NCBI GenBank assembly: GCA_947176235.1
Contig: CAMWPM010000004.1
Coordinates: 1 to 64,000 of the forward strand
Reading direction: 5' to 3'
Origin: an uncultured Bacteroidales bacterium
GTDB lineage: Bacteria > Bacteroidota > Bacteroidia > Bacteroidales > Muribaculaceae
Length of the DNA stretch: 64,000 nucleotides
Program-made: the position numbers and the translations under genes
Notes under the pieces: generated by a model
Told to the model about the DNA's origin: nothing
Database searches by the model: none
Seen by the model: only the letters and a program-made list of their open reading frames with translations
Shown here: one piece after another, positions 22,172 to 62,669 of the stretch
Layout: each line of letters begins with the position of its first letter
How positions within the stretch are numbered: the stretch's first letter is position 1

Positions 22172-23377
22172 TCAGGATTCCGTCAGGAATTGTCGGAGTG
22201 ACATTAATTTGATGCCGTCGAAAGTATTTGGCGCGGAATCATGAAGCGTGACAACGATTTTCTCAAAATTATCTGAAATATCTGCTAGATTTCCAAACTC
22301 CCGGTCCGCCGTAGAGGTGTTATTTACGTTTACGGCTACCTGTATATATCGGCGTTCGTTATTTTTTTCAGCTATGAAATCAATTTCGCGACCTGATATC
22401 AATGTGCCAACTTTAACTTCGTTGCCGTCGGATATTAGTTTATTGTAGACGACATTTTCCAGCAGTCCTCCTATGTCCATCGGGCGGTAACCGATAATTG
22501 CGTTTCGGATTCCCAGATCTTCAAAGTAATATTTTTCACCTATTTCAAAATACTTTTTACCCTCTATATCCCATCTCCTGACTCTGTTTATCAAATATGC
22601 TTCACAGATATAATCTACGTACGTCTGTACGCTCGTCACAGTCCCCTTGATACGTTGTGATTTCAGATAGTCTGCTATTTTTTTTGCTGTAAAAATCTGC
22701 CCGATATTGTCAGCGAGAAAAAGCATCATCCGCTGTAGAAAGTCATTGTTTCGTATAGAGTGGCGGCTCACTATATCGCGGTATACCAATGCTTCCGAAA
22801 TTCCAGTAAGGTATTCCATCCATGTCTCGTGTGAAGGTAAATTCCTCAGGTATGGCATACCTCCGTGACGTAGGTATAAATCAAGACTTATATCCGAATC
22901 TGAAAAAGAATGGAACTCTAAAAATTCAGTGTACGAAAGAGGATGTACTCGGATTTCAATACTCCTTCCTGCAAGTTTCGATGCAATCTCCGACGATAAC
23001 ATAGCCGAATTACTTCCTGTAACGTATATATCGTTCCGCGAGTCAAGATTAAGAGATCTTACAACTTTTTCAAAACCGTCAACTTCCTGAATCTCATCAA
23101 TAAAAATGTAATTTTTTCGATCCGAGGAGTAATTAGCCATTATTTCTGTATGGAGAGCGTCGGCATCGATAATATGGGAGAATGTGTAATCCTCCAGATT
23201 TATTGTAATGAAATTTGCGTTAGGATTCTGACGGCGGATTTCTTGTTCAACCGAATTAAGAATATAACTTTTCCCTACCCGTCGTTGCCCGGTTAGAATC
23301 TTTATCAGACCGCTATTGACGTAAGGAAGAATCTTTTTCAGATAATGAGGCCGAGGTATGTTTGCGAGAGTTTCCAT
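22172..23377 (-). CDS. AAA_14/DUF4143 ATP-binding protein
   Basis: A 401-residue ATPase. Visible are a Walker A motif LTGQRRVGKSYIL (about residues 29-41), a Walker B motif YIFIDEIQEV (near 93), a sensor-like VTGSNSAML, and a C-terminal DUF4143 domain that ends with a nuclease-like GREIDFIAEKN segment. Such proteins are very common in Bacteroidales and vary between strains; their function is not settled. The chosen ATG lies inside the first unit of an 80-bp tandem repeat. Translation from a non-ATG codon 60 bases upstream is possible but would read repeat sequence. Low GC compared with most of the window suggests acquisition by transfer. Confidence 0.85.
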   Translation of the reverse strand: METLANIPRPHYLKKILPYVNSGLIKILTGQRRVGKSYILNSVEQEIRRQNPNANFITINLEDYTFSHIIDADALHTEIMANYSSDRKNYIFIDEIQEVDGFEKVVRSLNLDSRNDIYVTGSNSAMLSSEIASKLAGRSIEIRVHPLSYTEFLEFHSFSDSDISLDLYLRHGGMPYLRNLPSHETWMEYLTGISEALVYRDIVSRHSIRNNDFLQRMMLFLADNIGQIFTAKKIADYLKSQRIKGTVTSVQTYVDYICEAYLINRVRRWDIEGKKYFEIGEKYYFEDLGIRNAIIGYRPMDIGGLLENVVYNKLISDGNEVKVGTLISGREIDFIAEKNNERRYIQVAVNVNNTSTADREFGNLADISDNFEKIVVTLHDSAPNTFDGIKLMSLRQFLTES

Positions 23378-23553
23378 TATATCATAAACTTTTTGCAAAA
23401 ATAATAAAAGTTTCCAATATACTGGAAGCTTTTCCAAAATTCTCTCAAAGCTTCCATTATATCATAAACTTTTTGCAAAAATAATAAAAGTTCCCAATAT
23501 ACTGGAAACTTTTCCAAAATTCTCTCAAAGCTTCCATTATATCAGAAACTTTC
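23372..23553 (-). repeat. 80-bp tandem repeat, 2.2 copies, over the ATPase start
   Basis: Units at 23372-23451 and 23452-23531 differ at about two bases, and a partial third begins at 23532. Each full unit has, on the minus strand, TATTTTTG (a -7 match) and an ATG with GATATA just before it. The ATG of the first unit is the start of the ATPase gene. From each ATG of units 2 and 3 a 26-codon ORF (MEALREFWKSFQ..., ending KKFMI) runs to a TAA that overlaps the next ATG as TAATG. No further gene was seen between the repeat and the lipoprotein gene at 23686. Confidence 0.85.
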
Positions 23554-61632: not shown

Positions 61633-62322
61633 ATGAAAAAATTCATCGCTGAAGGCGTGGGCACAATGTTCCTCGTCCTGCTTGCTTGCGGTAGCGCCGT
61701 CCTGGCGGGTCCGCACATCGGAGTACTCGGAATCGGTCTTTGCTTTGGGCTCGTGCTCGTGTGTCTGTGCTATTGCATCGGCAACATTTCAGGCTGCCAC
61801 GTTAACCCCGCAGTATCATTCGCAATGCTTATCGCCGGCAAGATGACCGGCAAGGATTTCATCGGTTACGTAGTGGCACAGCTTATCGGCGCTACGATCG
61901 GTGCAGGCTTCCTCTACTGGTTTGTGGACATGGCTCCGGAATATGTGTTCGGTGGCGTGACCGGCACGAACAATCTCGCAACAAACGTGCTTCAGCCCGG
62001 TGCAACCAGCGGCATGGCACTCTTCGCCGAGATTCTTCTCACGTTCTTCTTCGTGATGGTGATCCTGGGCGCCACCGATTCGAAGCTCGGCTTCGGCAAG
62101 TTTGCCGGTCTGGCTATCGGTCTGGCACTCGGACTGGTGAATATCGTAGGTATTCCCGTTGATAACTGTTCGGTGAACCCTGCACGTAGCTTCGGTCCGG
62201 CAGTATTCTCACCCGACGCATGGGGCGACATGTGGATCATGGTGGTTGGCCCGCTCGTTGGTGCCGCTATCGCCGTTCTCTGCTGGAAGGTCGTTTCGGG
62301 CAGTAAGGCAGGTGTGGAATAA
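61633..62322 (+). CDS. aqpZ: Aquaporin, AqpZ-like
   Basis: A 229-residue MIP-family water channel with six helices. Both NPA loops are intact: SGCHVNPAVSF (NPA at 58-60) and CSVNPARSFGPAVF (near 180-193). The Phe of GLCFGLVL and the Arg after the second NPA fit the narrow selectivity filter of water channels, not glycerol channels. The ATG at 61633 was chosen because an upstream in-frame ATG overlaps the promoter and adds non-conserved residues. Own consensus promoter; no terminator between its stop and the small RNA region that follows. Confidence 0.9.
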   Translation: MKKFIAEGVGTMFLVLLACGSAVLAGPHIGVLGIGLCFGLVLVCLCYCIGNISGCHVNPAVSFAMLIAGKMTGKDFIGYVVAQLIGATIGAGFLYWFVDMAPEYVFGGVTGTNNLATNVLQPGATSGMALFAEILLTFFFVMVILGATDSKLGFGKFAGLAIGLALGLVNIVGIPVDNCSVNPARSFGPAVFSPDAWGDMWIMVVGPLVGAAIAVLCWKVVSGSKAGVE

Positions 62323-62356: not shown

Positions 62357-62385
62357 TTGACTGTGTCTTGGCTGAACAATATTTG
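62357..62385 (+). promoter_or_regulatory. Possible promoter of the small RNA
   Basis: TTG (62357-62359, in TTGACT), 18 bases, AATATTTG (62378-62385), one mismatch from TAnnTTTG. Confidence 0.45.
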
Positions 62386-62401
62386 TAACACGGTTGTTAC
62401 A
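62384..62401. promoter_or_regulatory. 18-bp perfect dyad TGTAACA-CGGT-TGTTACA
   Basis: TGTAACACGGTTGTTACA has 7-base arms and a 4-base centre. It covers the predicted transcription start of the RNA. It could be a regulator site of Crp/Fnr style, or a stem-loop if transcription begins upstream. Confidence 0.5.
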
Positions 62402-62591
62402 TTATCAAAAGCCAGTAATCAGGTCGGGCATCGAGCCCGGAGGATCGAAATCCTCACAATGATATCAGCTAAGGGTGTTGGAAGTTGACACCACTTGAAG
62501 CTCGGCCAAGGCGACAGAAACAATATCTCTTGAACGAAAAAACCGGTGAATCGGTGACGCTGCAGCGCACCAGTCACCGGTCTTTTTTTTT
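62392..62591 (+). ncRNA. Candidate structured small RNA, about 200 nt
   Basis: No coding potential. Clear stems are CGGGC/GCCCG (62425-62439), GAGGAT-CGAA-ATCCTC (62440-62455) and GGTGT/ACACC (62474-62492), and the region ends in a very strong terminator. A promoter-like sequence lies 7-35 bases upstream of the predicted start. I could not match it to tmRNA, SRP RNA or RNase P; a 6S-like RNA was considered but the ends do not pair well. It could instead be a structured 3' UTR of aqpZ. Confidence 0.5.
62541..62591 (+). terminator. Strong terminator of the small RNA or aqpZ transcript
   Basis: ACCGGTGA...TCACCGGT with an inner GGTG/CACC and CGCTGCAGCG stem, followed by CTTTTTTTTT. Confidence 0.9.
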
Positions 62592-62669
62592 GTTGAGAGT
62601 TGAGAGTCGAGAGTTGAGAGTTGAGGGTGGAGAGTTGAGGGTGGAGAGTTGAGGGTGGAGAGTTGAGGC
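62592..62669. repeat. Minisatellite of GAGAGTT / GTTGAGGGTGGAGA units
   Basis: Seven-base GAGAGTT-like units run into three tandem copies of the 14-mer GTTGAGGGTGGAGA (with minor changes), directly after the terminator. Confidence 0.75.

Follow-up and report, generated by a model that had tools for sequence, protein, structure and literature searches.

The DNA that follows the aquaporin gene aqpZ in this Muribaculaceae MAG (the title that its relatives carry) raises the question of whether it encodes an RNA of its own or is simply the end of the aqpZ message. Within the 64,000-nucleotide stretch analysed here (the window), the first-pass annotation had picked out 62357–62591 as noncoding, stably folding DNA, and both direct reading of the sequence and a shuffle test upheld this; the three compact stems that it described, one of them with a CGAA loop, are likewise present. 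The next gene past the RNA is lpxA-like and lies on the opposite strand, and the window holds no same-strand gene downstream of the RNA, which disfavours a riboswitch. The stretch is best explained, with support from the analysis, as an unassigned structured RNA gene, favoured by the lack of an Rfam match, a conserved promoter, compensatory changes in two hairpins and a terminator. The features of the locus are as follows.

61633–62322, + strand: aqpZ, MIP family (Pfam PF00230), the upstream neighbour of the RNA
62408–62591, + strand: predicted small RNA of about 180 nt, fold z −4.4, without an Rfam match
62411–62506, + strand: predicted outer helix P1, GCCAGU..UCAGGU with ACUUGA.GCU.GGC, which closes the junction (MFE and centroid folds)
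62425–62439, + strand: hairpin 1, CGGGC-AUCGA-GCCCG, from the fold; not conserved among relatives
62440–62455, + strand: hairpin 2 (hp2), GAGGAU-CGAA-AUCCUC, with homologous hairpins in genomes G013, G184, G197 and G120
62474–62492, + strand: hairpin 3 (hp3), GGUGUUG-GAAGU-UGACACC, with an invariant apex GUUGGAAG..GAC; homologous in four other genomes
62542–62591, + strand: intrinsic terminator, ACCGGTGA..TCACCGGT, C, T9, from a folding-energy ranking of hairpin-plus-T6 sites

Fold, terminator and database searches

The predicted RNA out-folded 200 of 200 dinucleotide shuffles (z −4.4). Its body minus the terminator reached only about z −2.0, so that much of the full figure is due to the terminator. 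Pairing is predicted from about nucleotide 4, leaving a 5′ tail of only about 3 nt ahead of the first helix. Outer helices comparable to P1 are predicted in G013 and G120 with differing sequences, and P1 had no covariation support among the relatives. A long helix pairing 62361–62375 with 62503–62517 gave a fold z of −5.9, yet 6% of shuffled pairs equalled it and it was rejected as chance; it would moreover require transcription through the promoter, and it is absent in the relatives G025a and G184.

The terminator consists of a hairpin at 62542–62581 and a stretch of nine T's at 62583–62591; no other T run in the 64 kb is that long. By folding energy the hairpin ranks fourth among the 53 window sites with T6 or more, in keeping with its earlier description as one of the strongest terminators in the window, with nine T's; a simple terminator scan passed over it on account of its apex, which forms a branched structure of 24 nt. 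The RNAs of G013, G184, G120 and G025 likewise finish in terminator hairpins. The A6 before the stem and the T9 after it (62537–62591) mean that the terminator could also work on the − strand, where transcription coming from the lpxA-like gene could be stopped. Directly 3′ of the T9 lies a tandem array (62592–62668) of 5.5 copies of a 14-base unit (GTTGAGGGTGGAGA / GTTGAGAGTTGAGA); an AT-rich tandem repeat elsewhere in the window (23372–23552; period 80, 2.3 copies, 97% matches) is unrelated to the RNA.

No Rfam 15 family reached its gathering threshold anywhere in the window, and at E 10 there was no meaningful match in the RNA region. The Rfam models of 6S, tmRNA, SRP and RNase P did not match the window RNA, so the statement that it resembles none of the common housekeeping RNAs was borne out at gathering and permissive thresholds alike. 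Among the loci of the relatives, the only match above gathering score was a tRNA.

Relatives of the RNA and their genomic neighbours

The window itself was the sole match in blastn across 99 relatives and again in an order-wide pattern search of 393 genomes. A single-sequence covariance model (R1) run on 397 family genomes gave, besides the window, one weak match, in G025 and via the promoter part (46 nt, 39 identical, to window 62373–62418); this pointed to a promoter block, overall TGAAC-N18-GTTAYA-nTATCAAA (62373–62409), that is common to the relatives. Pattern and profile searches with this block located it at RNA genes in G013, G184 and, in two copies, G025. The bodies of the G013 and G184 RNAs are > 90% identical in their aligned parts, leaving out a G184 insertion of about 80 nt; this insertion lies between hp2 and hp3 (L114 1570–1650) and part of it resembles the flanking hp2 region.

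A body-only covariance model (R3), built from G013 and G184 with promoter and terminator excluded, found G197 (E 0.002) and G120 (E 0.004), both of another genus. At both loci GAAC-N18-GTTAYA sits correctly upstream, though absent from the model, in independent agreement with R3. A further match (L162, E 0.08) was without hp3 and was discarded as chance. On the window RNA R3 gave no hit (at most 5.2 bits when 281 bases were scanned), meaning that a covariance model from the other members alone does not recover it; the homology of the window body therefore rests on hp2 and hp3 together with the promoter. The window RNA does have hp2 with its GAA loop followed by hp3 with the conserved apex, and the window contains a single instance of the looser pattern GAAATC-N3..30-TTGGAAG, within the RNA, against 0.08 expected.

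The compensatory base changes that the first-pass annotation had named as a check were found. In a hand-trimmed alignment of hp2 and hp3 from five loci (the window, G013, G184, G197 and G120, two of them close), 60 of 60 pair cells were standard and five pairs had changed on both sides, two in hp2 and three in hp3. Their covariation score was reached by 0 of 500 shuffles; slid controls gave covariation near zero, with 33–43% paired. A descriptor of hp3 matched exactly five loci in 940,857 fetched bases, each with the promoter ≤ 260 nt upstream, and at four of the five hp2 lay within 70 nt of hp3, the exception being G184, where the insertion separates them. Chance folding of an intergenic stretch, with promoter DNA as the only conserved part and the rest noise, would fit the modest z of the terminator-free body and the finding that the RNA bodies apart from hp2 and hp3 are not conserved; given that these hairpins covary and, in the DNA scanned, occur only together with the promoter, however, we regard it as extremely improbable.

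The copies found amount to one RNA per genome, and two of a short form in G025. The latter are closely similar RNA-like genes, each about 100 nt long and separated by 12 kb, on C34 of that genome (L033/L116; L121 1400–1554, − strand), and both end in an identical GAGCGACCGTGAGGCCGCTC terminator; they have the block in common with the window RNA, though hp2 and hp3 are absent from them. A phage, plasmid or viral origin was considered and dropped, as similar DNA was not found: a loose hp2/hp3 pattern led to 15 viral contigs, but at the loci scanned none of these had the hairpin descriptor.

The location of the RNA after aqpZ is correct as adjacency, but it is incidental. At 80 aqpZ loci of Muribaculaceae relatives (aqpZ identity 69–87%) the RNA was not found in the vicinity, which ruled out synteny of the two, and the relatives of the RNA adjoin different genes, following recA, purB or a TPM-like gene or lying elsewhere. 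The element thus appears, from these comparisons, to be a free-standing RNA gene rather than a 3′ feature of aqpZ. Were it only a long 3′ UTR of aqpZ with its terminator, the role of the stems would be to protect the aqpZ message or to terminate it, and there would be no separate RNA. Read-through from aqpZ into the RNA is possible, and would take in the stems, since no strong terminator lies between them and that at 62542 is the first after aqpZ; but the absence of the element behind aqpZ in the relatives, its varied neighbours and the conservation of the promoter block at its own 5′ end make a mere 3′ UTR very unlikely. The aqpZ gene of one relative carries a promoter-like site, GAAC-N18-GTTATA, about 48 nt before its start (L035 209–256), where the window aqpZ carries a TAACTTTG site instead.

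The promoter block and its occurrence at other genes

A promoter-like sequence had been noted at the locus and one does exist, though not as it was first read. Its conserved elements are these.

62373–62377, + strand: TGAAC, upstream (−30/−35-like) element, from ungapped alignment A3
62395–62401, + strand: TGTTACA, −10-like element, aligned in the relatives; right arm of a palindrome
62402–62410, + strand: TTATCAAAA, conserved block round the predicted transcription start, with invariant alignment columns

In the window copy TGAAC is separated by N18 from GTTACA (62396–62401), and the ungapped alignment reads TnAACnA, then TTGTAACAC, then TGTTAYAnTATCAAA. GAAC-N18-GTTAYA is present at every full RNA locus, with AAAC as the variant in G184, and its occurrence upstream of the window RNA is the only one in the window. 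A TAnnTTTG-like −7 box overlaps the block (AATATTTG at 62378–62385; TATTTTTG in G025), and a canonical promoter of this kind with a start at 62392 was considered. Despite that near match, the spacing of the conserved elements, together with G197 and G120, favours GAAC-N18-GTTAYA, so that the site is probably not a sigma-70/TAnnTTTG promoter starting at 62392. From the published −10/−30 spacing of the PM2 promoter motif, we infer a transcription start near 62408 (PMC7366714); the discrete 5′ end formerly placed near 62392 is then probably some 16 nt too early.

PM2, the second promoter motif of Bacteroides thetaiotaomicron, is nearly palindromic and has its elements at −10 and −30; it lies ahead of 75 coding genes, among which oxidative-stress functions are enriched, and the sRNA GibS is expressed from it (PMC7366714). 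It has TGTT at about −10, and the ECF sigma factors SigH-1 and SigW-1 have been proposed as its readers (PMC12596196). Compared by description rather than by logo, GAACA-N16-TGTTA of the window fits the verbal account of PM2, and the block may accordingly be read as PM2-type.

The block also contains a palindrome, TGTAACA-N4-TGTTACA (arms 62384–62390 and 62395–62401), and could instead be the operator of a transcription factor acting under the housekeeping sigma factor, with no alternative sigma factor involved. The overlapping TAnnTTTG-like box is in line with this, as is conservation of the left arm, within the spacer TTGTAACAC, in the window, G025a/b, G184 and G013. The spacer is not conserved in G197 and G120 (g22 relatives), however, and there, as at many protein-gene sites, the left arm is missing and conservation is confined to GAAC and GTTAYA; furthermore, the palindrome occurs once in its own genome, which leaves no regulon of the palindrome there and led us to reject an operator of that kind. 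An HcpR/CRP-type site, prompted by the palindrome, found no support. Taken together, we hold an operator possible but doubtful, and continue with an alternative-sigma promoter.

A promoter sequence model trained on the RNA genes only (R2) identified, often among its weaker hits, sites before orthologous DUF308 membrane protein genes in different genomes (L127, L130 and L145), outer-membrane protein genes (L128, L136 and L140), small membrane protein genes (L133 and L135), and flavodoxin and thioredoxin-like protein genes; these envelope- and redox-type genes lie in other genera. Many of the protein-gene sites have GAAC and GTTATA separated by an unconserved spacer of about 18 nt, an arrangement that looks like an alternative-sigma promoter, and the genes with R2 sites in several Muribaculaceae are a candidate regulon of one sigma factor. 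The weak R2 matches (E 0.001–1) are a mixture, some of them not real: the downstream side held an ORF at 17 of 27, and the opposite side at 10 of 27. In the own genome of the RNA the sole significant site was its promoter; the next best (E 0.14) preceded an ORF of 360 aa whose N-terminus is lipoprotein-like. The strict motif is rare: across the aqpZ loci of relatives (549 kb) there were three GAAC-N18-GTTAYA sites against 0–3 at neighbouring spacings, and hence no clear enrichment.

A putative trans-acting small RNA

In enterobacteria a stress or envelope sigma factor, sigma-E, drives the small RNAs RybB, MicA and MicL alongside stress genes; we propose the same regulatory logic for the window RNA, the sequences being unrelated. 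With 6S and other housekeeping RNAs the likeness is one of length class only, 6S being a long bulged rod whereas the window RNA is a predicted branched junction.

Closer parallels come from Bacteroides. GibS and the window RNA are both intergenic, from gut Bacteroidales, with a non-canonical −10/−30 promoter (a predicted one for the window RNA) and an intrinsic terminator (PMC7366714). GibS, of about 145 nt, has little structure for most of its length, and its seeds lie in a conserved 5′ region (1–38) that is single-stranded (PMC7366714); by comparison with this description, the conserved parts of the window RNA are two hairpins, and its predicted fold has no extended single-stranded 5′ region of the GibS/FopS kind. 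The FopS RNAs are paralogous, 65–70 nt long, with a canonical sigma-ABfr promoter and 12–15 copies (PMC11697453); the two short RNAs of G025 are reminiscent of this family, whose members have a 5′ region in common and occur several times in a genome. Unlike FopS, the window-type RNA was found once per genome and the short G025 form twice.

Taking these lines together, we consider it likely that the locus is an sRNA gene of about 180 nt, driven by an alternative sigma factor, with hp2 and hp3 held in a junction and a trans-acting product. It probably represents a new and narrowly distributed sRNA family. An alternative sigma factor, probably ECF-type and PM2-like, would recognise TGAAC-N18-GTTACA, and transcription would begin near 62408 under stress or starvation, or in stationary phase. 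The RNA would fold as a closed junction that encloses hp2 and hp3, ending at the 62542–62591 terminator; its working parts may be the GAA loop of hp2 and the apex of hp3 (GUUGGAAG..GAC), which is invariant, and it would act in trans by binding target mRNAs or a protein.

As to which of these it binds, we give base pairing or an unspecified trans action a larger share than protein binding at the hp3 apex. The RNA could alternatively act as a CsrB/RsmZ-like sponge, its hp3, with GGA in the apex, docking a protein in place of base pairing. The strongest conservation does fall on that hairpin apex and its covarying stem rather than on a long single-stranded seed, and hp2 is conserved in its loop too. 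A single conserved GGA hairpin is nevertheless few for a sponge, and CsrA is, to our knowledge, generally absent from Bacteroidota. RbpB, the studied RNA-binding protein of Bacteroides, prefers single-stranded regions (PMC11697453). Protein binding in this manner is thus unlikely, and so, to a like degree, is the broader proposal of a new class of stress-sigma-driven RNAs whose GUUGGAAG..GAC hairpin docks an RNA-binding protein, making the RNA a protein-sequestering global regulator.

Muribaculaceae are a dominant mouse-gut family, and a search of open-access papers retrieved no work on their small RNAs. With its conserved promoter block, covarying hairpins and candidate co-regulated envelope- and redox-type genes, the RNA gives a concrete handle both on such small RNAs and on a non-canonical Bacteroidales promoter that is without a firmly assigned sigma factor; it predicts which genes share a regulator and which part of the RNA is needed for function. 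In this phylum neither the classical RNA chaperones nor CsrA are, as far as we know, the rule and, if the hp3 apex does bind a protein, it would point to a new RNA-binding regulator there.
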